A stretch of 64,000 bases of DNA from NCBI GenBank assembly GCA_034231615.1, contig CM067312.1, positions 6,745,747 to 6,809,746 on the forward strand. Direction: 5' to 3'. Shown here one piece after another: positions 8,046-61,772 of this stretch. Source of the DNA: Meghimatium bilineatum. Its lineage: Eukaryota > Mollusca > Gastropoda > Stylommatophora > Philomycidae. The notes beneath the pieces were generated by a model, which saw only the letters and a list, made by a program, of their open reading frames with translations, was not told where the DNA came from and did no database searches. The first letter of the stretch is position 1; each line of letters opens with the position of its first letter. The position numbers and the translations under genes were made by a program.

Positions 8046-8155
8046 CAGCATGGAAACTGATGATATAAGCATACATATCCACACCATGCAAATTTTCATC
8101 ATTTTACTCTGGAAAGTAGTGATTCTTGTGTACCTGCAAGATTCTAAATATGAAT

Positions 8156-42075: not shown

Positions 42076-42134
42076 TTCAGAAACTGTTTGAAACAACTCT
42101 CGAAGAAACGGATTTCTTCACCGAACATTCAAAC
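42076..42134 (+). CDS. NSUN7: NSUN7 coding exon 2 (59 nt)
   Basis: The exon encodes FQKLFETTLEETDFFTEHSN across the junction. Of two adjacent AGs, the first (after TCCAG, ending 42075) is used. The second (after TTCAG) would create a TAA at the junction. The donor is GTGAGT, in phase 0. The segment corresponds to the family block between AALK and the LYDF motif. Confidence 0.88.
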
Positions 42135-42489
42135 GTGAGTATACCACTTCCTATCCCAATCGCTTGAGTTGTATGGTTCCTGGTTTGTTTTTGATTTTTT
42201 TCTTCATTAATTTTATCTCGAAATGAAGAACACTGTTCACTATAGTCAAGAAACAACACTGCAGATATAGACATTACTGGTGAACGAAAAACGAAGACCA
42301 GTAAGTACACCAATATGTGCCCATGTGAACAATCTCCAGAAATACAGAAAATATTTTACAGAACTTCCGACTGTACCACACCACAAGAAAAAAACTGTGG
42401 CCATCTGAAACAGCACTGATGGACAAGCTCTACATCTATTTCTCGGAGCTGATGACCACAGTACAGTTCATTGATGAATTTAATCAATC

Positions 42490-42860
42490 AATCAATAAAC
42501 CCATAACCCTTCAGGGTCGTAGGGGTACCACATTGGATGCTTCAGCACACAGAGTCCTCCAGCGAATTCTATCCTCAGCGATGCGGATGAGTGCTGAAAT
42601 ATCTAGCCCTGTCCATTCCTTGATGTTGTCTGTCCATGTCTTTATTTGTCCTCCTCTGCTTCTTTCACCATCGACAGTTCCCTGCAGTATTGTTTTTGAC
42701 AAGGAATCGTGCCTGCATACATGTCCGAACCATGCTAGTTTTCGTCGTTTCACTATTGAAAGCAATGGCTCCTGGACACCTGCACACATCTCTACTTTAT
42801 TTCTTACGTACACATTGGTCTTATGTTCCCTATAGGAAATTTGATTATCCATTGTAGTAT
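42490..42860 (-). mobile_element. LINE-5 ORF2 C-terminal fragment
   Basis: A 113-codon minus frame reads YREHKTNVYVRNKVEMCAG, KRRKLAWFGHVCRHDSLSK and RGGQIKTWTDNIKEWTGLD. This is the KLxWFGHVxRHDxLxK tail of non-LTR ORF2. A plus-strand relative is at 62335-62760. It lies in NSUN7 intron 2. Confidence 0.8.
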
Positions 42861-43200
42861 TTCAGTGGGCAAAAGGTTTAGCTAGTGGTGCCCATCTCCT
42901 CTCCAGCTGTCCTTCTAATGTGGTTATATGGATGTGTTTTCTCTCTCCATCTCCATTGCACTTTTCTGATGTTGACGCTACATCACATTTGAACTTCGCG
43001 CTGAGCGCATCGCTACCATTTCACTAGGTCACAACCTTACTTCGTACGCATCCACATTAATACTTCTAAACTTGATAATACCTTCACTATGTTGTTATCT
43101 TTTAATCCATTAACAAGTAACCTTCAAGATATTATGAATTTAATATCAGCGTTTGACTTTAACTGGAAGACAAGGAAGAAGTAACATGTTATCTATTATA

Positions 43201-43700
43201 GATCGCCCGTGTGACAACCTGGGACTGGACCTCTAGTTCAAAATGCAAATAATAGGGCAACTATCTTCTTTCCAGATATGTCTTAGGAAGCGACTAAGAA
43301 ACGTTGATGGGCTGACAACTTTCACCTACGACAAAGTTATTGTCACTGCGCATGCCTTGCCTCGATTTCGTACTTCCTTCAAATAATACCCATGGACAAC
43401 GGACTCGGAGTGATGACTACCAATGAGCATTTGTCTGTTTAAATGTTAAGTATGCCAATACTGTACATGGGTCAAAACATAAGACCCATCGGAAGAATTA
43501 TGAACTGGTTGGTGACCCAGACGTTGGCCTTTATGTTGTAGGAAGTGACGATCCTGTGGTACCAGTGCCTCCCTACGGAGATTAAACATGGATAATAAAC
43601 CCCATTAATACAACAACACCATTTGAGGCAGCAAATCTTTTGCGTTTAAAGTCAATTCGATTACTCAGCCGAGAAGTATCTGGCTTTTGCCAGAACTACT
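43201..43700 (+). repeat. SINE-C-like element sharing the SINE-A head
   Basis: The start CGCCCGTGTGACAACC, AATAGGGCAACTATC and ATGTCTTAGGAAGCGACTAA parallels the SINE-A head blocks. The body (GGACAACGGACTCGGAGTG, GTGGTACCAGTGCCTCCC) and end (TTACTCAGCCGAGAAGTATC) do not match SINE-A but match 33700-33990. Confidence 0.55.
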
Positions 43701-43825
43701 CATAGCTATTCATAGTATTTCAACACACCCTCGCTAGTTGTTCTATCTATTCATAGTATTTCCACACATCCTAGTTAGTTGTTCTAGCTATTCATAGTAT
43801 TTCAACACACCCTCGCTAGTTGTTC
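43701..43825 (+). repeat. Tandem repeat, three units of about 43 bp
   Basis: Units contain CTATTCATAGTATTTCAACA then CACCCTCGCTAGTTGTTCTA. Confidence 0.8.
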
Positions 43826-43829
43826 TAGT

Positions 43830-44125
43830 TGTCCTCTTCTTCTCTCGCCTGGTACTCTGCCCTTCAGAATCAGCGTTTCGATACTATCATGTCGCTTCAA
43901 GTGTCCAAAATACTGTAGCTTCCTTCTTATGATGGTATTTAGAAGTCACTCTTTATTTAGTTTCAGTAATTTCAAAATGTCACTGTTCTTCTTTTTCTCT
44001 GTCCATGATATTCATAGGATCTTTCTGTAGCATTTCAGTTCAAATTAATTTATTCTTTTGGATATTGTCTTGTTTAGAGTCCAAGTCTCGCATCAATATG
44101 TTGCCACTGGGAAAACACATGATCT
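43830..44125 (-). mobile_element. LINE-2 ORF2 fragment
   Basis: The plus strand TGTCCAAAATACTGTAGC, CTTCTTTTTCTCTGTCCATG and AGAGTCCAAGTCTCG is the reverse of the LINE-2 segment at 37200-37400. Decayed. Confidence 0.5.
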
Positions 44126-44179
44126 TAAATGGGTTTGCATATATAGGGCATAGATATATGCAGTTAAATTTCATTATTC

Positions 44180-44575
44180 CACCAAAGACGAATGTGTCGG
44201 GCCATTGGCGCAAACAAAACGGCGACACAACGCATTTCCATTTTCTGGAATACATCATGCTGGAAATCTAGTTGGACCATTGGCCCTGCTATATGAGAGA
44301 TCTAGCGGGAGTTTGAGAATGTTGGCCCTGCTATATGAGAGATCTAGCGGGAGTTTGAGAATGTTGGCCCTGCTATATGAGAGATCTAGCGGGAGTTTGA
44401 GAATGTTGGCCCTGCTATATGAGAGATCTAGCGGGAGTTTGAGTATGTTGGCCCTGCTAGATCCAGTGGGAGTTTGAGAATGTTGGCCTGCTAGATCCAG
44501 TGGGAGTTTGAGAATGTTGGCCTGCTAGATCCAGCGGGAGTTTGTGAATGAACGCTAAAGAAGAAGAAGAAATTT
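44180..44575 (+). repeat. SINE-B copy with internally amplified 3' half
   Basis: The 5' half is normal (CCAAAGACGAATGTGTCGGG to CATGCTGGAAATCTAG). The 42-bp segment TTGGCCCTGCTATATGAGAG then ATCTAGCGGGAGTTTGAGAATG is then repeated about four times, and a 34-bp deleted version three more times, before the normal (GAA)n end. Confidence 0.92.
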
Positions 44576-44744
44576 CATTATAACAACTTTGCGCGAACCT
44601 ACAAACTATGTATGTAAAAACAGAAGTTCGCTATATACAGTACGAACAATAAAGGATAAATGTCATCGGGAATTTATAAAAATGTTGTTAAATAAGACAA
44701 TTTGTTATAAAAAGAATGCGCTACATAAGGATCACAATGTATAA

Positions 44745-44768
44745 GGGTCTCTCTCTCTCTCTCTCTCT

Positions 44769-44806
<38 letters not shown>
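44745..44806. repeat. (TC)n(TA)n microsatellite
   Basis: About 22 bp of TC followed by about 36 bp of TA. Confidence 0.95.
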
Positions 44807-44807
<1 letters not shown>

Positions 44808-45410
44808 AAGACGTATCAATTTTCGATTATTTGGGTAAAAAAATATATAGTTAAGGGAAATGCGCAGTAGAAATTAATAGAAGGATGGCGAAGGCGTTTT
44901 CGAAACTCTTACAAATGAAAAGTTACTGGCAAGGTAGCAGCAGCAAAGTAAAACTGTGGATGATAAGAATATGTGTATTCCCTGTGCCAATATATGGCTG
45001 TGAATTTTGGACTTTAAATAAAACAGTGGCAAAGAAAATAGTCGTCTTCGAATTGAGATGTTACAGAAATTGTTACAGAACATTTTTGCATATATCGTAT
45101 ACAGCAAAACAGACAAATAACGAAGTATTACAATCATTAAACGTCGAAGAGGTCTGGCTTCTAAATAACATCATAACAAGAAAGCTGAACTTTTTGATCA
45201 ACTATAGAGACATAACAGCATGGAAAGACTAATAGCAGAAGGCATAGTAAACGCTGGCAGAGGAAGAGGCCGCTCAAGACGACGATGGAAAAACGATATA
45301 TCTGACTGTTTGCACAAGTCACCGGAGGGGCAAGTCTACTCGCTCAAGATCGCGAGGTGTTCAGAAGGTATAAAAAGAAGACTACGTTCTAGAATGAATA
45401 TATCACACAA
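44807..45410 (+). mobile_element. LINE-2-like ORF2 fragment
   Basis: It reads NRRMAKAFSKLLQMKSYW, VKLWMIRICVFPVPIYGCE then FWTLNKTVAKKIVVFELRC and, in another frame, GRGRSRRRWKNDISD. This is the region after the RT catalytic core of a non-LTR element. One frameshift near 45220 splits it. Confidence 0.75.
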
Positions 45411-45412
45411 TG

Positions 45413-45516
<104 letters not shown>

Positions 45517-45811
45517 TCTAAATAGAGAGAGGGGGGATGCAGAAGAAAACAGTCACTTGCAATCTGAACATGGGCATCTAATTTGATTTGTCCCCACATG
45601 TCCTTCCGTTTTAGTTCATATCTTTACGTATATTTTGATACGGTAAAGTTAATATATTCTGTTAAGTTAAGTCCATTCTGTTTCTTTCCGATAAAATTGA
45701 AATGTCTAAATTTGTGCTTCGATCTTAAGATTTTGTTTAAACGAATGTCAAGGTTTTGAATGTAGCTGTTTCTATTTATATTGCGGTTTCATTAATATAT
45801 TTGTTTTATAG

Positions 45812-46095
45812 TTGAAGAACCATTCCAGCCTCGTGTGTGTTGTTCTTTACGATGTCTACAATCGCAAGTTTCAGAGGCGTACCACTTCTCCAGACGAACA
45901 AGTCAACGTTCTATGTAACGAGATCGAAGATGCTTTGATATCCAAGAAGACACGCCTTCAGTCTTTCATAGCAAAGGAACGAATCAAAAATAATGCCCCC
46001 GCGATAGAGTACCTCCTTCCGGAATCAATCAGACAGATAGACAAGGTCAAGTCTAAAATTCCAATCTACATGTGGGTCAACCAACTGAAGACCAC
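45812..46095 (+). CDS. NSUN7: NSUN7 coding exon 3 (284 nt)
   Basis: The exon encodes LVCVVLYDVYNRKFQRR, then ALISKKTRLQSFIAKERIK, IEYLLPESIRQ and IPIYMWVNQLKTT. These match the NSUN7-specific region ahead of the Rossmann core in order and spacing. The acceptor is GTTTTATAG and the donor GTGAGA, in phase 2. Confidence 0.95.
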
Positions 46096-46481
46096 GTGAG
46101 AATATATTTTCTTTAACTTATTACCCTCAAATCCCATTTTAACAACATGGCCATGACTGGCAAAATGTGTATTTAATAACAGAAATTCTCTACCTACAGT
46201 ACAAACAATAAAGAATAACAAATAATTGCGGATTTGAAAAAGTGTTGTTAAAATATAGAAATGTGTTGCAGCTAGGATATACACTATAGATTGGTTCCAC
46301 TGTATTAGCCTCCGTCTAAAATTCGTCATCGTACCCTCAGTATTAACTTTTCAACGCGCAGATAAATTGGGTGGTGTGGGTTTGGGAACTCAATCCCTCC
46401 ACCTCCGGGAAATCAGAACATAAATATATTTGTACTAGAAAATATAAAAAGCTGACAACCTCCCCACTCCTTCATGGTTTC

Positions 46482-46718
46482 CAACTTCTTCATGGTTTCC
46501 CAGAAAATGTGAACAAAATCCCACGACAATGAAGAAACGACCTGTGTTTGTTGGTAAATGTGAACAAAATATCCCACGACAATGAAGAAACGACCTTTGT
46601 TTTTTGGTAAATGTGAACAAAACCCACGACAATGAAGAAATGACCTTTGTTTGTTGGTAAGTGTAAACAAAATATCCCACGACAATGGAGAAACAACCTT
46701 TGTTTGTTGGTAAATTCC
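46482..46718 (+). repeat. Minisatellite, about four units of 57 bp
   Basis: Units contain CCCACGACAATGAAGAAACG, ACCTTTGTTTGTTGGTAAAT and GTGAACAAAAT. The three minus-strand open frames of 68-104 codons are products of this repeat. Confidence 0.93.
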
Positions 46719-46735
46719 CGTGCTCATAAGAAGAC

Positions 46736-46960
46736 GTCTCTACGACCCTTGCTCCAAGTCTGTACTAGTCCTACAAAGCTTCTACCATCATGTCCCTGCC
46801 TCTACTGTGTGTTTGCCGGCCCATGCTCCAAGTCTGTACTAGTCCTACAAAGCTTCTACCATCATGCCCCTGCCTCTACTGTGTGTTTGCCGGCCCTTGC
46901 TCCAAGTCTGTACCAGTCCTACAAAACTTCTACCATTATGTCTCTTCTGCCTCTTCTGTA
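46736..46960 (+). repeat. Tandem repeat, three units of 77 bp
   Basis: Units read TGCTCCAAGTCTGTACTAGT, CCTACAAAGCTTCTACCATC and CTCTACTGTGTGTTTGCC. It begins about 20 bp after the 57-bp array. Confidence 0.93.
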
Positions 46961-47109
46961 TGTTTTATTATAAACCAGCTTCATATTAAACGGGCATTCT
47001 CCATAAATTCCTAGCTCTCCATCCTATCAGTCATCCAAGAGTATCAGGTCGATAGTTAAAAGGGGAAGGCTTTGAGAGGCATTATACAACACCCATTTTT
47101 TAAATAGAA

Positions 47110-47495
47110 AATGACAACATGTGGACGTCTGTGGCTATAGAGGCGCAGGAAAATTACATGTGGACGTCTGCGGCTATAGAGACGCATGACAAGGACGAAG
47201 GGTCAAGAATGCAAGGCCATTGCTGGCTCTGGGCGTAGTAGCCTACGGTTCGGTACAGAACCGGTTCTCAAGTGCGACTGGCCAGCAATACTATCGATAT
47301 GGTCACGGACGTCCAAGATAAGTGTAAGTGGTAAAACACTGAGTGTATTAGTTACCAACTCTGAAGTAGAGTGTGTCGGTCCATTAGGACAAATCAAATG
47401 GCGATCCAACGCATTTCTGTTCTGTGGACTACATCCTGCTGGAAATCATCTAGGATCAATGTCCTTCTATAAGAGAGATTGCGTGCCAAGGATTA
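47110..47495 (+). repeat. Composite dispersed block ending in SINE-B
   Basis: The order is CTGTGGCTATAGAGGCGCA-type repeat (two units), ACTATCGATATGGTCAC, AAACACTGAGTGTA, then SINE-B from 47362 (GTAGAGTGTGTCGGTCC ... AAGAGAGAT). 3664-4176 has the same order, so the block is one repeated unit. Confidence 0.65.
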
Positions 47496-47639
47496 TTCGC
47501 AAATTGGTGAATCGTTCCATATTTATTTAAGCGCAACGCAGGCACTGGCTGAAACCGCAAGCCTATTCGCATGCGTGCATACTAAATGACTCAATGTAAA
47601 TGTTTCATAGAGTCAAAACAGGTGATTACGTAGGAGATG

Positions 47640-48100
47640 GATGGAGACGTTGGAAAGATATAATATGAGGGTCTCACTGCGAAAAATCACGGTTATCTTT
47701 GTCCACGGACACGCGGGTGTTGAGGGAAAAGAACGGGCCGACCAATTAGCTAGCCTCGCCACCATAGCAGATGGTCAGCCTATGGATCGATCAGATTATT
47801 ACTCTTCGTGAGTCCACACGATCAGCTGATTTTGAGATGGATGAGCATGAGTCAATATCGAGAATGCGCGAATTTGGAGTGAGGATGGGCGTGGTCCATA
47901 GAGAACACCTGACAAAGATTTCAAAAAGAGCAGTCAACCAACGTAGAACCGGAACCATCAGCAGTTATACCCTGAGAGATTTACTGAAGTGGAGATCCGA
48001 GCAACTATGGACATGTCCGGTGTACGAACAGGATAATGAACATACATAATACATAAGAGAGATCCGGTGGGAATTTGAAAACGAACGCAACAAAAAAAAT
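47640..48100 (+). mobile_element. LINE-7 RNase H/tail fragment, then SINE-B 3' end
   Basis: It reads VIFVHGHAGVEGKERADQLA (H-x-GVEGxExAD of RNase H) across 47690-47770, then RDLLKWRSEQLWTCP. A SINE-B tail (AAGAGAGATCCGGTGGGA then ATTTGAAAACGAACGC) is appended at 48053-48095. Confidence 0.75.
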
Positions 48101-48159
48101 CATGACACTTAGTAAAAGAAAGCTTGCAAATAAAAAAAATGAAGGTAAAAATATATCCG

Positions 48160-48400
48160 TTCGTTACTCTAATAACAGCGGGTAAATTAATATCCACCCG
48201 TCAGCTACTCTAATAAGAGTGGGTAAAAATCCACCACAGCCAACAAATGCTGCGTTGGTAGCTATGTCCTGAATTAGGATATGCGACCAAAAAATCCACC
48301 AGCTCTTTACTCTAAATAACAGTGGGTAAAAATCCTCAAGCCCGTTACTCTAAAAACAGTGGGTAGAAATCTACCCGTCCGTTACTCTAATAAAAGTGGG
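48160..48400 (+). repeat. Irregular tandem repeat, about six units
   Basis: Units contain GTTACTCTAATAACAG-GGGT then AAAAATCCACC, spaced 35-110 bp apart. Confidence 0.7.
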
Positions 48401-48424
48401 TAAATATTGGTGCACCTTATAAGC

Positions 48425-48497
48425 AAGACGTCGTAAGCAGGATCGAACCCGTGATCTTTTGAGCACACGGTAAACTGCTTAACCACTTTATCACGGA
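48425..48497 (-). ncRNA. tRNA-like unit (tRNA-derived SINE head or tRNA pseudogene)
   Basis: The minus strand contains TGGTTAAGCAG, a perfect Pol III box A, and GGTTCGATCC, a box B, about 30 nt apart, within GTGATAAAGTGGTTAAGCAG ... GATCACGGGTTCGATCC. I could not fold a convincing acceptor stem or assign an anticodon, so a functional tRNA is unlikely. Confidence 0.55.
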
Positions 48498-49324
48498 GAT
48501 GATCGACAAAAACAAATGACAGAAACGAGATTGTGCTGCATCTGCGGAATCCAGTAGGGGTAATGTAACCATATTGTCCAAGGTGTAATTAAGGGGAAAA
48601 TTTGTTTGGTTATAGGGCATACCTTCTAAATTTTTATCAAATCTGAGCCTATCACAAATTTTGGTTTAATTCTGTAATGTCACTAGCTGCCAGTAAAAAA
48701 TGGTTAACTTAATCGCAAGTTTGTTTAGCTTACCAGCGAATGATAAACATTTAGTACGTCTGTTACAGTCGCGAGGACTGCTGCCGGATGCAAAGATATA
48801 CGTGCCACACACTGAGAGCCACATCCATATAACCCTGCTAAATAAATATCCACACCTTCACCCACCGATGAACAATTATAGCCAAGGGAAATAATCGCTG
48901 AAAATGTGTCATTTATTTCGTTTGCAAAATTTCTTCGCACGAGCTTCGAAACAATCAGTTTCCAGTGTGCACCACGAGAAGGTGCTTATATGTTATCTTG
49001 GTTATCTGCTAACCCTGGGATTGAACGAGAGCAATGCATATCCTATTGCATCCCTAAATGTCTCTAACGTCCTTCTTCTTCTTCTTCTTTCTGTCCTCAT
49101 ATACCTTTCGGTGTTGTGGGGAGAGTGAGTGTACGGTCTTTTGCCCTTTTATATGTGCCTCCTCTGCTGTTATATTTCCGAGTGTCTCTAATACACTATC
49201 TATCCACCTTTTACGAGTTGGTAAATCCAATAGGTATTTACCAACTTTTTCATTACTCAATTTGTGACTCATTTATGACATATCTGACACCTGCTCAGTC
49301 AATCTTTGTTTTTGTTTTTTATAG

Positions 49325-49517
49325 AATGGAAGATGTCTGTGCGGAATTGGAAGCCGAAGGATTCATCCAACTGACTGGTTGTAACCATGTTATCGAACAT
49401 GATGGAAAAGTTTACAAGAAGGATACGCATTGCTGTGATCTGCTAGTTTTCCCTTCTACTCTAAGTCTGTATTTCAAGAGCACAAAATTGGTCAAGATGG
49501 GACATCTAATTCAACAG
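49325..49517 (+). CDS. NSUN7: NSUN7 coding exon 4 (193 nt)
   Basis: The exon encodes EDVCAELEAEGFIQL, then DTHCCDLLVFPSTL and KLVKMGHLIQQ, which correspond to the family blocks LKREGF and DQHCYDVLIFPS. The acceptor is TTTTTATAG and the donor GTTGGC after CAG, a weak donor but at the position where homology stops. Phase 0. Confidence 0.92.
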
Positions 49518-49792
49518 GTTGGCCACAGTATTTCCATTTCCTTAACTGTACGAATACTTACGAATACATTAACTTGAGCATTTCTTAAAACTATTGTTTA
49601 ACAAAATTGATGGATATATAATTTAGAACTGTAATTTAAATATGCAATTGAATGTTGCATTGGGGGGGGGGGGGGAGGGATATAGCTTTGTCAAACCATC
49701 CGTATATAACATGGGTGTACCGTTCTTGACATGCTGGCATTCACGGATATGAAAAATTGGACAGGCCTGCATTAAATACACCTATATGGGAG

Positions 49793-49865
49793 CAAAGAAT
49801 TGCGATACTTTTACCTGCCAGGTATTTCGTTAGGGACGATTAAGGAGGTGAGCTTCCGGTTACAA
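49793..49865 (+). repeat. Degenerate SINE-A head
   Basis: GGAGCAAAGAATTGCGATAC, CAGGTATTTCGTTAGGGACG and ATTAAGGAGGTGAGC follow the head blocks with several changes. The remainder of SINE-A is absent. Confidence 0.5.
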
Positions 49866-49944
49866 CATGATCACGACGCCTGATATATTTTGAAGATGAC
49901 ACAGGAAGATGTTTGCCGTTACGATACACTCTTCGTATTTCACA

Positions 49945-51155
49945 TAATACTCACGTGGGTGACAGGTAATGCAGTTCTACTGGTAAACAATTAACACACT
50001 ATCACTGTCGGATGCCTACATGAGTTAATATATTATACACAACAAAACACAGAATACAAGCATACAAATGACAATACAAAGGACATAATTGACGTTTCGT
50101 ACCTAAAGACCTTTGTCAGGATACGCACATAACATACAAACATAAAAATACAAAAAAAATATCAAAAGTAGAAATGAATACACAATAAGCGTGTCCGAGT
50201 GAATAATGGTAGTGAGATACCGGAAGGATACGAACAGGAAGTACACAAAGACGATAATATAGATGGAACGAGAAGAACAAAACGATGACGTAAATGACGG
50301 CACAAAATGAATATAAAGACAAAGACCAATCCGACCGGGGACTAAGCAAAAGAGTGTGTGCTTAATGGCATGAAGGTGGTTATAGAATCGCTCGCTCAAT
50401 CTAAGGCCGGTCTCACCGATATATTGTTTACCGCAGCGTTTACATATGATCACGTAAATAACATTACGGGATTCACATGTAAAGGCCTCATCGATGGAGA
50501 AAATAGCCTTGGGAAAAGAGATGGAGCGCATCTGGACCACATAAGGACATGTGTAGCAACGACCACGTGAGCAACGAACGGTGCCGAAATGGTCAGGCGC
50601 AGAAGACCTGAAGTGGCTGTGGACCAAGATGTCCTTTAGATCTTTGTCGCGCCTATAGGCCACCAGAGGTAAGTTGTGGAAAGCTGCACGGGTGTCAGAA
50701 TCAGACAGGAGAAGAGAATATAATGTTTAAGCAGGATGCGACGGATAGTGAGTTATGGGGATGGAAGGTAAGAACAACTTTAACCCTATCAGAGGAGGAG
50801 GAAGAACCCTGGGAATTATTCAAGGTATCAAGGCGAGATAGCTGGCGTACACGGAGCCAAGCCAATATATCCTTCCGGTATCTCACTACCATTATTCATT
50901 CGGACACGCTTATTGTGTATTCATTTCTTCTTGTGATATTTTTTTGTATTTTTATGTTTGTATGTTATGTGCGTATCCTGACAAAGGCCTTTAGGTCCGA
51001 AAAGTCGATTTGTCCTTTGTATTGTCATTTGTATGATTGCATTCTGTGTTTTGTTGTGTATAATATATTCATTCATGTAGGCATCCGACAGTGATAGTGT
51101 GTTAGTTGTTTACCAGTAGAACTGCATTACCTGTCACCCACATGAGTATTATTTT
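49945..51155 (-). mobile_element. Penelope-like retroelement, 5'-truncated, flanked by inverted arms
   Basis: Arms at about 49945-50232 and 50872-51155 are reverse complements over roughly 285 bp (AGGTAATGCAGTTCTACTGG; GATACCGGAAGGAT). Between them the minus strand encodes the C-terminal part of a Penelope-like protein. Each arm has a hammerhead-like CCTGACAAAGG ... CGAAA motif. The RT domain is missing. It lies in NSUN7 intron 4. Confidence 0.85.
50235..50892 (-). pseudogene. Penelope-like protein remnant with GIY-YIG endonuclease domain
   Basis: The upstream frame (50892-50701) reads RVKVVLTFHPHNSLSVAS. After a frameshift, the frame 50663-50103 reads MAYRRDKDLKDILVHSHF, CSRGRCYTCPYVVQ and VIYVIICKRCGKQYIGETGL with RLSERFYNHLHAIK. 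The CSRGRCYTC Cys cluster and V-IYVIICKRCGKQYIGETG with R and H/N are the Penelope linker and GIY-YIG endonuclease. The frame runs into the inverted arm, so the C-terminus is replaced. Confidence 0.85.
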
Positions 51156-51499
51156 CATTCTGTTCTACTAGCAGTACTACCTTGTATTGATTATCATTTC
51201 GTATTTCACACAAAAGCGAATCTCTGCAGGAAAAACAGCATACAGGTAGATATCATAAGATACATTCCCAACGTTGAAGTTGGAAAACACTGGCCCGGGA
51301 CTAGATACGGTACTTGAAAGCGTGCGATTACGTTACACAATTGAACCCATGCACCATACGGAAAGCGATAAAAATGTCGTTGAAGAACGCGGACACAAAG
51401 TAAGCAATAGGGACCAAATAATCATAACTAAACAAAACAATAAGACTACAAAATCCAAAGATATCAACAGACCACAATCTTTCGCCTTAAAACAGATCA

Positions 51500-51845
51500 C
51501 TACAGGAAGTTGAGTCGCCATTACCGATTGAGGATCTCATACACAGATGAATGTCCATGTGGACCCGGAACACATACTTCAGGAATGTCCAACATACAAA
51601 GAGCAGAGACAGCAGACCTGGCCAGAGACAAAAGCTATGGGGCAGCCGCTCTGACCTGGAGAAGACAGTGGACTTCGCCCTGACGACAGGCCTGACAATA
51701 TAACATGACAACAGATGCTGAACGCAGAAGAGAACGCCCACTAAAAAATATACATTAATCAGTGACTGCGGCCTGCATCTGCAGATTAGCAACACACACA
51801 CACCAGAGCACATACTACAGAATTTCCCCAGCTTCACTGTTCACA
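51500..51845 (+). mobile_element. Non-LTR ORF2 3' tail, decayed
   Basis: The plus strand reads SRHYRLRISYTDECPCG then CGPGTHTSGMSNIQ and RRQWTSP, the Cys-containing C-terminal tail. The minus frame of 116 codons is a shadow. Relative of 1640-2330. Confidence 0.6.
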
Positions 51846-51959
51846 GTACGACACTGGCAAAAAAATGAGCTTCTCAGCAAAAGAAGTTGTAGAGTACCAA
51901 AGACAACCTAAAACAAACCGCTCTATACATGACCAGTATTAGACTGGATGTTTAACAAC

Positions 51960-52060
51960 TGATCACATAAGAAGAAGATGGAGGATGAGTGGTTTGGGAC
52001 GAGTTGGCAGTTCCATCCCATAGAATGTCAAAAAATGACCCACAGATGATGTGATTTGAA
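51960..52060 (+). repeat. SINE-A middle fragment, degenerate
   Basis: GATTTGGGACGAGTTGGC-like, AGTTCCATCCCATAGAATG and AAATGACCCACAGATGATG follow the SINE-A middle. Confidence 0.4.
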
Positions 52061-52199
52061 GAATGTGATATTACGAATTTACGAGTAGTACAAAATCACA
52101 GCTAGCTTATTCTGAAAAAAATGCATATGGTTGCGTCTGTGGGTCTCACCAATGTCCCACTAGACATACCACCCATGCAACAGAAAACCTTAGTGGATG

Positions 52200-52680
52200 A
52201 CATGCCGTTATATTGAGGTTATCTTCTTAGAGAAGTTTCATGTTTAACTGAATATATGTATGCACCCTCTGTGGTTGGGAGGGAGCCATAGATGTACTGT
52301 GCAGCACTGGGGAGGAGGAAACTGACAGCACTGTTTTTCCTATGACTCAAACCCATCATAGAGGCACAGTGACTCAGGACGTAACAATCCTTTTGACGTG
52401 AACTTTGGTTGCATGCCTAGAGCAATAGAGAAGTTCGGCATAACCAGTAGTCAATTGGTGGCAGGGAATGAGCGCAGTGAACCCTATCTTGGTTGCAGTG
52501 GCTCGGAGCAGTGCATAGGTTGAAACCTATCTTCCTGGAGGTGTAATAGTTATTCTCTGGCTCTGTTCCGGAGTGGGCCGAAAATCCACAGACTTCCCAG
52601 CAATATAATGCAATTTAATGGCATTAAGTCAAAGGGCATGAGCCCATGGACCGCTAGATCAGCAACCAACCAACCAACCT
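52200..52680 (+). repeat. Possible SINE with AACC tail
   Basis: About 450 bp of G/C-richer sequence ends CATGAGCCCATGGACCGC then TAGATCAGCAACCAACC with several AACC units. Only one copy is visible in the window, so the call rests on the tail. Confidence 0.3.
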
Positions 52681-52689
52681 ATTCTGAAA

Positions 52690-53420
52690 AAACATTTCAG
52701 GAAATAGAAAAGAGGCCGCCGAAGACGTCAATGAACACAGGATATCGATAACCTTTTGAAGATGACACAGGAATATGTAGGATAGTAAGTACTGAACTAA
52801 GAAGCTTGCAGAATAACAGTGAGACCAACGTTCTGCAAAGTACACGTCACGTAGAAGAACGAGTAGGACTATGGTACAGAATTGAGAATGTATTTAACAA
52901 GTGATCCACAGGAACAGTCAGCATGAATAAGCTTTGACATTTGCTGGAGGAGATTGAGAACCTATGGGTTTGCCTGAAGTGCAAGTTCAAAATTAATAAT
53001 TGAATATTGTTTAATCACTTTCTACCAAGTTAGCATCGAAGAAGAAAATAATACAGTAAAATTATATTATGATAATTGGTCCGGACAAGAAATATGTATG
53101 TAATAACAGAAATTCGCTATATAGTAAATCGCGTTATAAAACTTAGTCCTGACCGACAAAAATGTATGCAATAACAGAAATTCTCTGTATACGGTACAAA
53201 CAACATATATGAATATAATTGTTAATCTTGAAAAGTGATGTTATATAGGGAAATTTAAAATACGTTATAACGGATTCCACCGTATACAGTACAAACAATA
53301 TAGAATACATACGGATAATTTGGGATTTTCAAAGTGTTGTTGAAAAGGGAAATATGTTAAAAATGTAAGCGTGTTAGAGGAATTCAACTGTACTCAATAT
53401 TTATCATTTTTATTCATTTA
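52690..53420. other. NSUN7 intron 4 end, LINE and short-duplication debris
   Basis: 52900-52990 resembles the LINE-7 3' tail (GAGAACCTATGGGTTTGCC). 53090-53390 holds about four diverged copies of a 90-bp unit with AATAACAGAAATTC-CTATA and ACAAACAATATAGAA, also seen at 44615-44700 and 46180-46290. Confidence 0.45.
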
Positions 53421-53421
53421 G

Positions 53422-53641
53422 GACAAAAGCAGTTGTTTGGCAGCAGAGTCTGTTCAATACTTGCTGGGCAGCGACAAGGACGTCATTCACATCAACGTCG
53501 GAACTGGTGTAACCACAGCACATTTACTAAGTCTCCTCAAGAAAAAATCCCCCCATAGCCATATTTGGGGTTTTGGATTAGGATCAATCGGCAAGGCCAG
53601 ACGAACTATGAAGAATATTGAATTTCTTGGAGCTATCAAAA
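53422..53641 (+). CDS. NSUN7: NSUN7 coding exon 5 (220 nt): degenerate SAM-binding region
   Basis: The exon encodes DKSSCLAAESVQYLL, then DVIHINVGTGVTTAHLLSLL and HIWGFGLGSIGKARRTMKN. This is the motif I region of the Rossmann fold. The usual D-x-C/A-AAPGGKT loop of active NSUN proteins is replaced by NVGTGVTTAH, as is typical for the NSUN7 branch. The acceptor is ATTTAG. The donor is taken as GTATCC at 53642 because the phase (1) fits exon 6. A SINE-B copy lies 70 nt downstream. Confidence 0.88.
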
Positions 53642-53711
53642 GTATCCTTCTTAAAATACAATAGTGCTCCTTATAGAAAGTGTTATATAGTTCGCCTTGA
53701 ACACTTCGTTC

Positions 53712-53868
53712 CGCCGAAGACGGGTGTGTCGGGCCATTGGCTTAATAAAACTGCGGCACAACGCATTTCCATTTTCTGGACTACATCCTGCTGGAAATCT
53801 AATTGGACCATTGTCCGGCTACAAGAAAGATCCAGTGGGAGTTTGAGAATGAACACTGAAGAAGAATA
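53712..53868 (+). repeat. SINE-B copy, full length
   Basis: It reads CCGCCGAAGACGGGTGTGTC to GAACACTGAAGAAGAA. It starts 70 nt after NSUN7 exon 5. Confidence 0.85.
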
Positions 53869-53879
53869 ACACTTCGTAA

Positions 53880-54330
53880 AATACAATAGTGCTTGCTTAC
53901 GTAAAACACAATATTGACCAGTTGTACAATGAACGCGCACACTATCAGACAATAGGTTAGGGGTATGAAAAAATACAAATAGCATTATATATAAGGCAGC
54001 TGAAACGATGAAACTGTCTCGTATAATGTTATCCTTATTTGTTCATACTAATACCCAACAGTCTGATAATCTGTGCGTTATTTTAAAGCTGTTCGACCTT
54101 GTGTTCTACGTAAGCACTATTGTCAGCAGGGTAGTAGATACGATCTCCTCGGGGGTGGGGGAGGATGTGGTAACACATGTGTAACATATTTTATATTTTA
54201 GAGACTGACATTCTCCTCCCTCCTACACCCAAAAAAGCTACTCTTAACACTTTTTCGTACGCTGAACCAATCATTTCGGAGACCTTCTATCTAGCCTTTT
54301 GGCTATCATCATGATCATTAGATGCCATAC
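53880..54330 (+). other. NSUN7 intron 5, nothing recognised
   Basis: No repeat or exon seen. Confidence 0.4.
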
Positions 54331-54500
54331 CCCTGGCGTAGGCGGTCATGGCTCTCCACAGCTCTCTGTTCACAGTATCAAGATCGTTGTTGTTTCCCTG
54401 CCGTGCCAGGTTGTCAAACTGTCTAATATTTTCTTACGTTGTCGCCCTTTGTCTCTGTTGCCTTCAATTTTGCCTGTTCTCCAACGTGTTCTTCATATGT
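54331..54500 (-). mobile_element. LINE-4 3' tail
   Basis: The plus strand GGCGGTCATGGCTCTCCACA, GTGCCAGGTTGTCAAACTG and CTGTTGCCTTCAATTTTGCC is the reverse of the LINE-4 tail at 7880-8040, and is repeated at 63880-64000. Confidence 0.7.
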
Positions 54501-54539
54501 TCTCCAATGGCTATGCACCTCTGGTATTCTAACGTCAAA

Positions 54540-55043
54540 TAAGACATTTTAAAAAACTAAATGTTGCCTTAGGATATCTGTGAAAGTCTATCAAATTGAG
54601 AGTAGCCAGCCCTTAGTCAAGACAGTTTCATCACAGCTTACAAAATTATTGTATTTACAGAGTTGCATGAAGAAAACTCAAAAGCATTAATTTATTAAAT
54701 GGAAGTTGTAAGCGTTAGAATGAGTGCTTACTAAATATGACACTTGTCACAGAAGGAAACGTTATTTTCTGCCTTTTTTTCCAATGCGCTTTCGGGTTAT
54801 TACTCAAAGAATTGTTTTCTTTCGAAGGGTGAATATAAAAACTCACCCTGTACATCAAGAGACATGCTGCCTTTATCACACAGCTACAAAATCCCTCCCT
54901 GCAACTCCTTAACTGGAAACATGCAGTATCTGACAGTTTTGTTTTACTCAAATAGTATTAATGACAAGATTTAAACGCTATTTAAAATTACCACGAACTA
55001 ATGTAATTTTATACTACATTCGATTACTTTGTAAGATGTAGGC
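54540..55043 (+). other. NSUN7 intron 5, nothing recognised
   Basis: A/T-rich; short open frames on both strands at 54715-54974 have no recognisable content. Confidence 0.4.
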
Positions 55044-55221
55044 CAGGGTTATTCAAATGGCGGCCCGCGGAGGCCTAGTAAATAGCCAGCGGATCATTGC
55101 TAAAACAGTGAAATAGTTATAAAACAACTAAATGTATATAACTATATTGGGACCTCTGGCACGTGATTATCCCCCATTGTCTACATTTTGGCACCCTAGT
55201 AAATATAATTGAATAGCCCTG
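55044..55221. mobile_element. hAT-type miniature element, 178 bp
   Basis: It begins CAGGGTTATTCAAATGGCGG and ends AATTGAATAGCCCTG, imperfect inverted ends. It is flanked by ATGTAGGC (55036-55043) and ATGTAAGC (55222-55229), an 8-bp duplication with one change. No coding capacity. Confidence 0.8.
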
Positions 55222-55384
55222 ATGTAAGCCTATAACCAAACGTAAATATGTAGGCAATGCTTACGTTGCTTATATAGACGCCGGACCAATTGAATACACA
55301 GAAACAGCATGTCTCTTGTCTTTAAAAAATAACTATTATTAAAAATCAAATAATATACTATAGAAACAGCCAGGATTTATTCGT

Positions 55385-55560
55385 CAAGAAACGTCATGCA
55401 GCACACGGGATTTATACCAGGGTCACTTCAGTGGCTCCAACTCGCCTTGTAACTTTAGTCAATACGTTTTGCGATGTGGTCGAAGGCAGAAAATGTTTTA
55501 ACTCAGATTTCGAGGAGAGTGGGTGTCATCTGAGCTGACCGGGTTCAAAACCCGTAATCT
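55385..55560 (-). repeat. Degraded tRNA-like SINE
   Basis: CACACGGGATTTATACCAGG then ACTCGCCTTGTAACTTTAGT and CAATACGTTTTGCGATG resemble the tRNA-like elements at 63008-63125. It lies 60 nt before NSUN7 exon 6. Confidence 0.4.
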
Positions 55561-55622
55561 GCATAATTTGTATATATTATAAAATCAAGTATCAATTAAA
55601 AACCTTAATTTCTGGTACATAG

Positions 55623-55766
55623 ATACGCGGCTCCTTACAGACAATTTTCTAAGTATCGATCCAGAAGAGCCGAAACTGAAGTCAGCCAAGGTCATATTAA
55701 TTACCGCCAGCTGTAGCAAATCAGCTATTACAAATCCTATCGAGTTCCTCATCAGCGAGGGAGAAG
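55623..55766 (+). CDS. NSUN7: NSUN7 coding exon 6 (144 nt): motif IV; its 5' splice site is tandemly amplified
   Basis: The exon encodes RLLTDNFLSIDPEEP, then SAKVILITASCSKSA and NPIEFLISEGE. The Cys of motif IV is present. The acceptor is GTACATAG and the donor is GTATGA at 55767, in phase 1. The last 25 nt of the exon and 18 nt of intron, with the donor in the middle, are the unit of a 43-bp array repeated 16 times downstream. Reading through the first donor stays open until a TGA in copy 3 (55853-55855). Confidence 0.93.
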
Positions 55767-56428
55767 GTATGATCATTGCGTGTCGAGTTCCTCATCAGCG
55801 AGGGAGAAGGTATGATCATTGCGTGTCGAGTTCCTCATCAGCGAAGGAGAAGATATGATCATTGCGTGTCGAGTTCCTCATCAGCGAGGGAGAAGGTATG
55901 ATCGCTGCGTGTCGAGTTCCTCATCAGCGAGGGAGAAGGTATGATCGTTGCGTGTCGAGTTCCTCATCAGCGAGGGAGAAAGTATGATCATTGCGTGTCG
56001 AGTTCCTCATCAGCGAGGGAGAAGGTATGATCGTTGCGTGTCGAGTTCCTCATCAGCGAGGGAGAAGGTATGATCATTGCATGTCGAGTTCCTCATCAGC
56101 GAGGGAGAAGGTATGATCATTGCGTGTCGAGTTCCTCATCAGCGAGGGAGAAGGTATGATCATTGCGTGTTGAGTTCCTCATCAGCGAGGGAGAAGATAT
56201 GATCATTGCGTGTCGAGTTCCTCATCAGCGAGGGAGAAGATATGATCATTGCGTGTCGAGTTCCTAATCAGCGAGGGAGAAGGTATGATCGTTGCGTGTC
56301 GAGTTCCTCATCAGCGAGGGAGAAGATATGATCATTGCGTGTTGAGTTCCTCATCAGCGAGGGAGAAGGTATGATCGTTGCGTGTCGAGTTCCTCATCAG
56401 CGAGGGAGAAGGTATGATCATTACGTAA
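55741..56428 (+). repeat. Minisatellite of 16 43-bp units, each a copy of the NSUN7 exon 6 5' splice site
   Basis: Units begin at 55742 and every 43 bp to 56387 with no indels: GAGTTCCTCATCAGCGAGGG then AGAAG, GTATGATC and ATTGCGTGTC. The first unit is the real exon end and donor (55767). The donor dinucleotide is GT in 12 of 16 units and AT in copies 3, 11, 12 and 14. Confidence 0.98.
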
Positions 56429-56579
56429 GAACTATCCGACTTTTGTTGTGCTTTTTATTGGCTGGCGAAGCAAAATATAAATAATTAATCAATAAAATCA
56501 TGACAATAGTCAGAGTGTCTAACACAGTGACATTGGACACAGTATTGTTACATCAGGTCATTGCTTAACTAATTGAGGT

Positions 56580-57000
56580 TTTTTTAAAATAAAATAACAT
56601 CCATGTGTTACAGGGCCTTAAGAGGTAGCAAGAAATAGCAACATTGTTAATGTTAAACTTGTCGTTAACGTTTTCTGTCCATCTTTTTCGTGGTCTTCCT
56701 CTGGCTTTGTACCCTGATCTCATTTGGTTATATGCCTGTACGGGCAACTTGTCGTGATGCATTCTCATATTGTGACCAAACCACTTGATTTTCTGCCTTT
56801 CTATGTATTCTGTGCAAGGTAGTATACCTATTCTTTCCCTGATATATTCATTTTGTAATTTATCGAACCTGGTGACCCCGGCGACTTTCCTCAAGCATTT
56901 CATCTCACATGTCACTATCTTTCTGTAATGTGAAGATGAGAGAGACCAGGTTTGGCACTGGTAGCACAGTGTTAGTGCACATAGTTTACTGGTTAAATAT
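56580..57000 (-). mobile_element. LINE-9 ORF2 C-terminal fragment
   Basis: The minus frame reads TLCYQCQTWSLSSSHYRKIV, CEMKCLRKVAGVTRFDKLQN, ECIERQKIKWFGH-type text and YKARGRPRKRWTENVNDKF. This is the C-terminal part of a non-LTR reverse transcriptase (A-E-MK-LR-VxGxTxxDRxRN). Related families are common in animals. Confidence 0.85.
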
Positions 57001-57335
57001 AATTCATTTGCTATACAAGGGGTCATATAGTTTACGTCAACAATTACGGGGGGGGGGAGAGAAAAGTTTGACAAAGTTGATGGCAACAATACCGTACTTC
57101 TGCACCAATTCAATGTTAGAATTTGAATATATTTTCTAAAAATCACAAACAAATTATGTATTGTTCCGCACTTTTATCCTAAAACAAATTTTTTTTTGGG
57201 GGGGGGAGGAGGGGGGTAAATTTCTTTGGCATAATAATGCAGGAGAGGGATCCCGGAATTTAATTTTTGGGAATTGTTAATAAGGGGGGGGGGGCAAAAA
57301 TGATATAAAAGTGTTGACGTAACTGATGGAGGGCA
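57001..57335. repeat. Poly-G rich low-complexity stretch
   Basis: G runs of 7-10 at 57049-57058, 57199-57214 and 57283-57293 in A/T-rich sequence. Possible G-quadruplex potential; otherwise unassigned. Confidence 0.6.
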
Positions 57336-57339
57336 AACA

Positions 57340-58787
57340 GCTTTCTGTAGAGTGTCTAACTCATTCTATGGACAACCTCCTGTAGAGTGTCTAACTCAGT
57401 CCATGGACAACCTCCTGTAGAGTATCTAGCTCAGTCTATGGACAGCCTGCTGCAGTGTCTAACTCAGCCTACGGACAGCCTTCTGTAGAGTGTCTAACTC
57501 AGCCCATGGAAACCTCCTGTAGTGTGTCTAACTCAATCCATGGACCACCTGCTGCAGAGTGTCTGACTCAGTCCACGGACAGCCTTCTGTAGAGTGTCTG
57601 ACTCAGTCCACGGACAGCCTTCTGTAGAGTGTCTAACTCAGTCCACGGACAGCCTTCTGTAGAGTGTCTAACTCAGTCCACGGACAGCCTTCTGTAGAGT
57701 GTCTAACTCAGTCCACGGACAGCCTTCTGTAGAGTGTCTAACTCAGTCCACGGACAGCCTTCTGTAGAGTGTCTAACTCAGTCAACAGACAGCCTTCTGT
57801 AGAGTGTCTGACTCAGTCCACGGACAGCCTTCTGTAGAGTGTCTGACTCAGTCCACGGACAGCCTTCTGTAGAGTGTCTGACTCAGTCCACGGACAGCCT
57901 TCTGTAGAGTGTCTAACTCAGTCCACGGACAGCCTTCTGTAGAGTGTCTAACTCAGTCCACGGACAGCCTTCTGTAGAGTGTCTAACTCAGTCCACGGAC
58001 AGCCTTCTGTAGAGTGTCTAACTCAGTCCACGGACAGCCTTCTGTAGTGTCTAACTCAGTCCACGGACAGCCTTCTGTAGAGTGTCTGACTCAGTCCACG
58101 GACAGCCTTCTATAGAGTGTCTGACTCAGTCCACGGACAGCCTTCTGTAGAGTGTCTAACTCAGTCCACGGACAGCCTTCTGTAGTGTCTGACTCAGTCC
58201 ACGGACAGCCTTCTGTAGAGTGTCTGACTCAGTCCACGGACAGCCTTCTGTAGAGTGTCTAACTCAGTCCACGGACAGCCTTCTGTAGAGTGTCTAACTC
58301 AGTCCACGGACAGCCTTCTGTAGAGTGTCTGACTCAGTCCACGGACAGCCTTCTGTAGAGTGTCTGACTCAGTCCACGGACAGCCTTCTGTAGAGTGTCT
58401 GACTCAGTCCACGGACAGCCTTCTGTAGAGTGTCTAACTCAGTCCACGGACAGCCTTCTGTAGAGTGTCTGACTCAGTCCACGGACAGCCTTCTGTAGAG
58501 TGTCTAACTCAGTCCACGGACAGCCTTCTGTAGAGTGTCTAACTCAGTCCACGGACAGCCTTCTGTAGAGTGTCTGACTCAGTCCACGGACAGCCTTCTG
58601 TAGAGTGTCTAACTCAGTCCACGGACAGCCTTCTGTAGAGTGTCTGACTCAGTCCACGGACAGCCTTCTGTAGAGTGTCTAACTCAGTCCACGGACAGCC
58701 TTCTGTAGAGTGTCTAACTCAGTCCACGGACAGCCTTCTGTAGAGTGTCTGACTCAGTCCACGGACAGCCTTCTGTAGAGTGTCTAC
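57340..58787 (+). repeat. Large minisatellite, about 41 units of 35 bp
   Basis: Units read AGAGTGTCTAACTCAGTCCA then CGGACAGCCTTCTGT, with an A/G change giving CTAACTCAG or CTGACTCAG. The left five units are diverged and irregular; the remainder are nearly identical. It lies in NSUN7 intron 6. Confidence 0.97.
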
Positions 58788-59174
58788 TTCAGTCGATCTC
58801 TATTTGGTGGACATGAATTGCAAGAAAACATAAATCTGTCCTGTTCTCAGTCAAATCTCTTCAATTCTGATATTTTCTCATTGACGTGTTTTCTGTCTAA
58901 ATTGTATGATATGTCTTTTCGACAAAATTAGATACTTGTTAAGTTTTCGAATTTATTCGGAGTTCGGATTAACAGGATTGCCTAAACCGTGACATCTATT
59001 ATTTTAGTGGTCATGCGACTCGATGTAACAGAAATGGGCTTGCTTCAGTGGTTGAAAGATGTCCACAAAGCGGCTTTAATATCCAACCTACCACTCATAA
59101 AGTTCGTAGATATAATTACCATAAGGAGGAGATTTTACTAAATACATTTTTTTAAATAGGTCATTTGTCCGTTT

Positions 59175-59390
59175 CCGTATATGTTTCCTTCCTTACATGT
59201 CGTAAGAGGTGACCAAGAGGCGACCTATCCCATATAGGTTCAAAGTGTCCCGGAAGCCATGCTAAAGTCGGGTGTGTCCTGTCAGAGACGCAGATATCGC
59301 ATCGAAGCTGTAAACCATGAAACAGAGTATTCCGTTCTCCAAACTACATGCTCTTGATCTGCAGGAGTTTCAGAACGACTGCAGAAAAAT
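59175..59390 (+). repeat. SINE-A copy, head truncated
   Basis: CTTACATGTCGTAAGAGGTG, ACCTATCCCATATAGGTTC, then ATCTGCAGGAGTTTCAGAAC. It lies 80 nt before NSUN7 exon 7, followed by a 24-bp TATTTCTCTCTAATACG duplication. Confidence 0.7.
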
Positions 59391-59473
59391 ACGTATTTCA
59401 TATTTCTCTCTAATACGTAATTGATATTTCTCTCTAATACGTAATTGATATTATTTCTCTCTTATACGAACAG

Positions 59474-59575
59474 ATATGAATTTTCTCGGGGACATCTTCA
59501 AGGCCAGTCGAAGTATGGACAATGTGAACAATCTGGTGACGGAGCATGAACGAATACTAAAACACGCTCTCATGT
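59474..59575 (+). CDS. NSUN7: NSUN7 coding exon 7 (102 nt)
   Basis: The exon encodes DMNFLGDIFKASRSMD then NVNNLVTEHERILKHALM, matching the family segment between motif IV and motif VI. The acceptor is ATACGAACAG. Of two overlapping donors the better one, GTAAGG at 59576, gives phase 1 and fits exon 8. A C-run follows at about 59685-59700. Confidence 0.9.
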
Positions 59576-60354
59576 GTAAGGAGTTTGGTTTCAATATGTT
59601 TATTCATAACAACTTGTATTTATATTCATGGCATTTTTTCATTATCGTCTTGAATAAAGACCTTCCAACAGAATTAATTAGGACCCCCCCCCCCCCCCCC
59701 CATTCGTTAAATTTTTAAAATTATTGTTGGGATTTTCGGTTGGTCACTATTACATACTTGGAATCGCATGCCAAAAATAGCCAAGGCGACTCCATCATTT
59801 TTTCTTATGTTCCATGCCGTGTGGCATTGGTTATCATATCTTTCCACATATATTCTATTTCGTGTGCTATTAATCGTTTCCGATACCGATGTTCTCCCAT
59901 ACCACAATGCTAGGTTGTCAAACATCTTCTCTCTTAGTCTTTCCTTGCCTCTCTTGCTCTGTCTTGCCAACCCCTAACAACCAACCTGTTGTTACAATAT
60001 GTTCTATCTTTCCTCTTCTCGTGGTATATCAACATATGTGGACTTTCTCTTTCTGATGCGGGTAAGAAGCTCTCTTTTCGAATTAATTTCTTTCAAAATA
60101 TATTCATGACACTTTTTATCTGTCCATGGTGTTCTTAACATTCTTCTATAAAACTATATCTCTGCTGACTCCATATAAGTTTTCATTATTATGTTGAGTG
60201 CCAAAAATGTCGGTAGCATATATAAATTCAAGACGAGCGAAAAGTCCAGCATTTAAAAAAAATTGTAGTGATTTATTTTCCAGGCAATATTTACATACAG
60301 TATGTTGCCACTGCTTTTTGAAAGCCTGGCTGCCAAACAACATGTAATTACTTT

Positions 60355-60515
60355 TTTCTTCTTCAACTTTCATTCTCAAACTCCCGCTTGATCTCTCTTG
60401 TAACAGGACAATGATTCTACTAGGTTTCTAGAAGGATGTAGTACAGATAATGGAAATGCGTTTTGTGTCGTCGTTTTATGTGCCCCAATGTTCCGACAAA
60501 TCCGTCTTCAGTGGT
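60355..60515 (-). repeat. SINE-B copy, diverged
   Basis: TTCTTCTTCAACTTTCATTC to AATCCGTCTTCAGTGG; about ten differences from consensus by eye. Confidence 0.7.
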
Positions 60516-60635
60516 ATGTAATTAGTTTTAAACTCAGCACAGGGCTCGTTCAACAATTTTTTTTAGACGTGTTCACAGCCTAGAAGCTACAGCGCAGAGC
60601 ATAACTATAATTAACAATGTTTAAATAACTAATGC

Positions 60636-60785
60636 TGCCAAAGTCGGATATGTCGGTTCATTTCCGCAAATAAAAGTGCGACACAGCGCGTGCCCATTCT
60701 TTGGATTTCAACCTGCTATAAATCTTGTATAACCACTGTCCTGCTACACGAGAAATCCAACGGACGTGTGAGAATATACGCTTAC
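60636..60785 (+). repeat. SINE-B copy, diverged
   Basis: GCCAAAGTCGGATATGTCGG to GTGTGAGAATATACGC. Confidence 0.65.
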
Positions 60786-60827
60786 AAAATAATTATTAAT
60801 TCTTTGGTTCCCCCCCCCCTAATTTCC

Positions 60828-60990
60828 TAGTGGAACGCCGAAGTCAGATGTGTCGGGACATAGGCGCAAATAAAACGGATACACCGCGCATTTCTGTTCT
60901 CTGGACTAGCGATTCCATCCTGCTGGAAATCTAGTAGCATCATTGTTCTGCTATACGAGAGATCTGGTGGAATTTTGAGAAAGAACGAAA
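60828..60990 (+). repeat. SINE-B copy
   Basis: ACGCCGAAGTCAGATGTGTC to TTTTGAGAAAGAACGAAAG, with an insertion GCGATTC before CATCCTGCTGG. Confidence 0.7.
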
Positions 60991-61029
60991 GACAAAACTA
61001 AAAAAAAATATATTTCATGCGGAACAACG

Positions 61030-61600
61030 GGCTGCAACTAAAATTAACAAACTAAATGATACTAACAAATTAGATAACATTAATCAAATATATAATATTA
61101 ACATACTAGACAATATAAAAAAACTAGATAATATCAACTAACTAGATAATATTAGCTAACTAGATAATATTAACTAAATATATAATGTTAACAAACTAGA
61201 TAATATTAACTAACTGGATAATATCAACTAACTATATCTTATTAGCTAACTAGATAATATTAACTAACTATATAATATTAACAAACTAGATAATATTATC
61301 TAACTGGATACTATTAACTAGCTAGATACCAAACTAACTATTAACAAACTTAAAAATATTAACAAACTAAATAATATTAACACACTTAATAATATTAACA
61401 CATTAAATATTAACAAACTGAATAATATTAACAAACTGAATAATATTAACAAACTGAATAATATTAACAAACTGAATAATATTAACAAACTGAATAATAT
61501 TAACAAACTGAATAATATTAACAAACTGAATAATATTAACAAACTGAATAATATTAACAAACTGAATAATATTAACAAACTGAATAATATTAACAAAGTA
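61030..61600 (+). repeat. Tandem repeat of 18-bp units upstream of NSUN7 exon 8
   Basis: The right part (61420-61600) has about ten near-perfect units AACAAACTGAATAATATT. The left part (61060-61420) is a diverged version with ACTAGATAATATTAACTA. The repeat brings dozens of TTAAC/CTAAC steps close to the acceptor at 61647. Confidence 0.9.
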
Positions 61601-61647
61601 ATGCTAACCATCTAACAAACCGATGCAATCATGTTTGTGTTCTCCAG

Positions 61648-61772
61648 TTCCACGAGTTCACGCTGTTGTATATGCTACACGTTCCCGATACGAATGTGAG
61701 AATGAGCTTGTGGTCAAGAGGGCTCTGGAATACGTGCACGCAACAAGTACCGGCAAAGGAGTTCCATTTAGG
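61648..61772 (+). CDS. NSUN7: NSUN7 coding exon 8 (125 nt): motif VI with Cys replaced by Arg
   Basis: The exon encodes FPRVHAVVYATRSRYECENE then LVVKRALEYVHATS and GKGVPFR. Vertebrate NSUN7 as I recall it reads VVYCTCS at this point, and active NSUN enzymes have the catalytic TC of motif VI. Here the codons read GCT ACA CGT TCC, so the Cys position is Arg. The acceptor is TGTTCTCCAG and the donor GTAAGA, in phase 0. No later exon was recognised before the window ends. An 18-bp repeat array stops about 45 nt before the acceptor. Confidence 0.92.

Follow-up and report, generated by a model that had tools for sequence, protein, structure and literature searches.

Which donor does a gene use when a minisatellite repeats one of its 5' splice sites in tandem? 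The question is raised by a locus in a 64,000-base stretch of genomic DNA (the window), in which an array of 43-bp units, each carrying the end of an exon together with the start of the following intron, lies within an open NSUN7-like gene.

An NSUN7-like gene surrounds the repeated junction

The first-pass annotation had assigned the junction to NSUN7, and the assignment stood. A tblastn search with an approximate human NSUN7 sequence as query gave five pieces with E below 1e-3 that lie in order on the + strand, collinear with the human protein, and an open frame of eight proposed exons was built, with exon ends placed by visual inspection at GT-AG sites compatible with the frame.

40235..61772 (+): NSUN7-like gene, in-window part, 8 proposed exons
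40235-41009 (+): proposed exon from phase and weak likeness (tblastn E 43 at 40952-41008); 5' limit not fixed
42076-42134 (+): proposed exon from phase and weak likeness; no tblastn match listed
45812-46095 (+): proposed exon; tblastn match 45824-46120, E below 1e-3
49325-49517 (+): proposed exon; tblastn match 49329-49565, E below 1e-3
53422-53641 (+): proposed exon; tblastn match 53422-53628, E below 1e-3
55623..55766 (+): sixth proposed exon, 144 nt; acceptor tacatag/AT, donor AAG/gtatga, phase 1 end; tblastn match 55631-55765, E 2.1e-6
55767..59473 (+): intron from donor 1, which also contains a 35-bp x 42 array at 57337-58794
59474..59575 (+): next exon, phase-matched to donor 1; tblastn 59473-59571 not significant (E 15), inside the range aligned to the NSUN5 chain
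61648-61772 (+): proposed exon; tblastn match 61653-61775, E below 1e-3

The exon at 42076-42134, which was picked by its acceptor, its donor and likeness judged by eye, had a score of 17, seventh of the 8 candidates listed (best 22). Joined together, the eight proposed exons give 634 codons with 0 stops, matching phases and GT-AG introns, the count being taken from the first codon after the upstream stop, at 40235, and the true 5' limit may differ. The sixth exon, flanked by introns of 2.0 and 3.7 kb as calculated from the coordinates, joins in frame with the acceptor before 59474. Proteins of the NSUN type are expected to match a Pfam model of the catalytic domain. In a Pfam search at E values up to 1 four families were returned, that model not among them, and only the NSUN5 ferredoxin-like domain (PF21148, E 3e-10) stood above the cut-off. 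The 356 residues encoded from 45812 on match residues 81-342 of the NSUN5 chain PDB 2b9e (E 1.3e-18).

Further 3' exons were not found within the window by tblastn with the same human NSUN7 query. We take the cysteine of NSUN motif VI in NSUN5 (YSTCSLCQEENE) to be the catalytic residue. In the exon at 61648-61772 the motif reads YATRSRYECENE as against YSTCSLCQEENE in chain 2b9e, an arginine standing where NSUN m5C methyltransferases have the catalytic cysteine, and the second conserved cysteine is retained (ASCSKS versus PSCSGS in the 2b9e alignment). To judge by the motif VI arginine, the NSUN7-like protein may be inactive as an m5C methyltransferase.

Sixteen units span the exon-intron boundary

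The array begins within the last bases of the sixth exon and runs into the intron.

55740..56426 (+): 43-bp x 16 minisatellite; unit made up of the last 25 nt of the exon and the first 18 nt of the intron (TRF and unit table)

TRF described it as period 43 with 16.0 copies, 95% matches, 0% indels and a score of 1255. The initial description of a 43-bp tandem array free of indels, with units from 55742 made of 25 exonic and 18 intronic nt, was thus borne out by TRF and by the layout of the units. The span first given, 55741..56428, needed trimming: the array is present, but TRF ends it at 56426 and the final bases of copy 16 depart from the unit sequence. Lag-43 identity was 0.957 over 600 nt, whereas the maximum among 20 single-base shuffles of the window was 0.342, and hence the array is not a product of chance. 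The units differ from one another at a mean of 2.2 of the 43 positions, and 11 of the 43 vary among copies in mixed patterns.

We also considered a structured unit. The unit can form a small hairpin before the donor, which folded no better than shuffles (z 0.31 for one unit, z -0.90 for two), and this candidate was rejected; the 25-nt exon part alone gave z -1.72 against shuffles.

Eleven donors are identical and only the first keeps the frame open

55767..55768 (+): donor 1 (GT), the sole donor giving an open frame
55810..56413 (+): donor positions of copies 2-16; GT in 2, 4-10, 13, 15 and 16; AT in 3, 11, 12 and 14; copy 6 weakened at -1
55856..55858 (+): TGA in copy 3, which terminates the exon frame if positions 4-16 are used

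In the unit table GT stands in 12 of the 16 units, while copies 3, 11, 12 and 14 have AT, exactly as first noted. The description of these sites as a near-identical series holds for the 12 GT copies, but only 11 of them are identical from -3 to +6 (AAG/GTATGA); the donor of copy 6 is AAA/GTATGA and has a lower matrix score. All 11 occurrences of the 9-mer AAG/GTATGA on the + strand in the window lie inside the array. By a matrix of approximate human donor frequencies, which is a rough guide to strength, the array donor scores 3.19, third among the 7 gene donors scored (a set that leaves out the donor of exon 42076-42134), and its U1 pairing energy of -5.7 kcal/mol is fourth among the 7. By the same matrix exon 53422-53641 has a weak donor (-4.02). 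Of the 3821 + strand GT sites in the window, 66 equal or exceed the array donor in score, and a GT farther down the same intron, at 59271-59272, reaches 4.56 versus 3.19 for the array donors, so matrix score alone cannot single out real donors.

The consequence of using each position was read by joining it to the next acceptor, at 59474. Donor 1 leaves the frame open through the last known exon, whereas all 15 later positions (11 GT, 4 AT) meet a stop, which upholds the claim that donor 1 alone gives the normal protein. Use of donor 2 would shift the frame, and a stop would be reached 76 nt inside the next exon; from the AT position of copy 3 the stop would fall 6 nt into that exon. Positions 4-16 would all stop at the TGA of copy 3, including positions 4, 7, 10, 13 and 16, where the added length is a multiple of three. 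This read-through TGA had also been predicted, and it ends at exon nucleotide 236 (55858). The exon is 144 nt long with donor 1 and would be 187 to 789 nt long with the later positions.

Variation is as frequent in the donor cores as elsewhere in the unit. Within copies 1-15, 2 of the 9 core positions vary, as do 6 of the 34 positions elsewhere (Fisher p = 1.0), and the G-to-A variant at +1, present in 4 of the 16 copies, has no wider spread than a variant at unit position 34 (5 of 16). Hence there is no hint of selection keeping or removing donors 2-16 in what, with 16 copies, is a weak test.

Minisatellites are dense throughout the window

TRF returned 53 rows for the window, with units of many kinds spread throughout. 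Minisatellites are very dense; one at 13770-15279 has 49 copies of a 31-bp unit, and another at 39239-39736 has 14.6 copies of a 34-bp unit. Merging the rows by hand gave 41 arrays. Of these, 36 had periods of 10-100, and 26 of the 36 had at least 3 copies. These 26 cover about 10,305 of the 64,000 bases, about 16%, a figure in which a 36-base overlap of two arrays is counted twice and the array at 8153-9801 is entered, on our reading, as period 40 with 41 copies (TRF: 160, 198, 400). If each array grew from one randomly placed unit, a mean of 0.15 of 13 junctions would be covered (the count excludes the two junctions of exon 42076-42134), and at least one was covered in 14% of 20,000 placements; per junction, the estimate from the window is 0.014 units. 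An array spanning a junction is therefore no great surprise here. An excess of arrays at junctions was also considered and rejected, as 2 of the 13 junctions lie inside arrays, whereas 20,000 circular shifts averaged 2.04 and gave 2 or more in 62% of cases.

A 24-bp repeat of roughly three copies (TRF, 59388-59487) covers the acceptor of the next exon. The score of its last copy against the upstream copies, 18, was matched by 129 of 5000 single-base shuffles and at 361 of 1725 control positions, and that of the exon part of this copy, 13, at 555 of 1725 control positions. On the other side, the 40 nt around the 59474 acceptor recur upstream with a score of 28, which among the 15 junctions compared is second only to the array donor (80); the next score is 26. 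We do not claim a second junction array at this acceptor, the match at the junction being not clearly above the controls.

Other features of the window may be recorded briefly. The 35-bp x 42 minisatellite at 57337-58794, in the same intron as the donor array, contains CTAAC and CCTTCTGTAG, which by eye resemble a branch site and an acceptor, and a lone stretch like its unit (AGAGTGTCTAAC-CAGT, by eye) lies about 800 bp upstream of it, at 56510-56545. Peptides from open reading frames at 37009-37602 (-), 42511-42861 (-) and 30659-31039 (+) resemble remains of retroelement reverse transcriptase and RNase H. Searches of the window with ARAGORN (bacterial code) and with Rfam at gathering scores gave 0 genes and 0 matches, respectively.

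Which donor is likely to be used

Given these data, we consider that the array is probably a minisatellite of the type called mirages in amphioxus, with donor 1 mainly used and copies 2-16 carried as intron. A tandem duplication would have taken in sequence across the 5' splice site of the exon, and ordinary minisatellite turnover, by slippage or unequal exchange, would then have enlarged and homogenised the array. Donor 1, which adjoins unique exon sequence, lies nearest the acceptor of the exon and gives an exon of 144 nt, would be the site mainly spliced, and copies 2-16 would behave as intron. Exon definition is the usual mode with introns of such size as the two flanking this exon (2.0 and 3.7 kb), and thus the donor that gives the 144-nt exon should be favoured. 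Any use of a later donor would yield frameshifted or stop-containing RNA, which nonsense-mediated decay would probably remove; selection would then be expected to preserve the dominance of donor 1 and not to preserve the other donors. We infer both this selection and the manner in which the array arose and grew. Most likely, then, donor 1 is the working site, with little or no use of the others. One generality runs counter to this reading. When equal donors are duplicated in experiments, the intron-proximal site is often favoured if U1 fills both, and this preference would predict use of the last copies. A literature search for experiments on duplicated equal donors retrieved none. The reported use of downstream donors in human IFI6 also counts against it, as does the remark in the amphioxus globin paper that mirage repeats could act as cryptic sites. 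Regular splicing carried over by analogy from the amphioxus mirages would instead suggest that splicing of the NSUN7-like gene is undisturbed.

The eleven identical tandem donors, together with a stop from every one of the 15 later positions, would also suit a regulatory device in which donors are used according to copy number, all products but one decay and array length thereby sets the output of NSUN7. The reported use of more than one repeat donor in human IFI6 lends this some support, but amphioxus mirages are reported to leave normal splicing undisturbed and the donor cores here show as much variation as other unit positions, and we regard such a device as unlikely. Very unlikely, in our estimate, is a dial of a related kind, in which U1 would fill a changing number of equal donors and array length would set how much functional NSUN7-like RNA survives; if true, it would mean that differences in array length between individuals or tissues tune that RNA. 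It is quite unlikely that the gene is a decaying copy whose array reflects relaxed constraint rather than tolerated variation. The exchange of cysteine for arginine in motif VI (YATRSRYECENE versus YSTCSLCQEENE), the failure to find more 3' exons in the window and the weak donor of exon 53422-53641 point that way, but 634 codons open across eight proposed exons, whose phases match and whose introns are GT-AG, and clear likeness along the chain to human NSUN7 and to NSUN5, do not, and loss of catalysis does not mean loss of the gene. That the assembler multiplied or mis-joined the copies seems highly improbable: tandem arrays are hard to assemble, and the draft version of an amphioxus globin mirage is said (PMC3087553) to have been aberrantly assembled, but mixed patterns of difference among the copies here involve 11 of the 43 positions, and the whole window is strewn with arrays whose units are of many kinds.

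The locus offers a clean natural test of donor choice: 11 donors share the same 9 nt and are spaced by multiples of 43 nt, and only the first is productive. By the chance estimate, many junctions should carry arrays in a genome this rich in minisatellites, unless such arrays are removed by selection, and thus a genome-wide survey could measure how far splicing tolerates them.

Comparison with known systems

The NSUN7-like array is real, and structures of its kind are already described in amphioxus and human genes. The first-pass annotation knew of no such case, a view that could not be sustained. In PMC3087553 and PMC3902484, 'mirages' is the name of an amphioxus feature, tandem repeats across exon-intron boundaries, found in Adh3, the globins BflGb6 and BflGb9, TnC and PGBD5 (the last two from PMC3902484). 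There RT-PCR is said to suggest regular splicing, and instability, both of length and somatic, is reported; the globin paper (PMC3087553) adds that the repeats could act as cryptic sites. As in those mirages, the tandem unit here spans the exon-intron boundary and the splice dinucleotide is kept in many but not all units (GT in 12 of 16). The amphioxus units given there (Adh3 10-72 bp, globins 150-160 bp, PGBD5 60 and 108 bp) bracket the 43 bp found here. The gene differs, as does the copy number, 16 versus the 6 and 3 repeat units reported for the two BflGb6 haplotypes. The NSUN7-like array is known from one genomic sequence, whereas the reports on amphioxus mirages also include RT-PCR and instability.

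Human 6-16/G1P3/IFI6 provides the other precedent. Its minisatellite unit is reportedly 12 bp long and in frame. Turri, Cuin and Porter 1995, as quoted in citing papers, describe the minisatellite as supplying several splice donors; PMC4526556 has downstream repeat units serving as donors to give three mRNAs, and PMC3618361 cites Turri, Cuin and Porter 1995 for splicing interference. In contrast to IFI6, where downstream donors are reported to be used, the 43-bp unit shifts the frame, and downstream donors here would give no usable isoforms (15 of 15 positions stop if used). Internal tandem repeats at exon-intron boundaries, with altered splicing, are also described in human segmental-duplication genes (PMC2812944); there they came to light as differences between recent paralogs and were connected with new introns, whereas the array described here is at a single locus.
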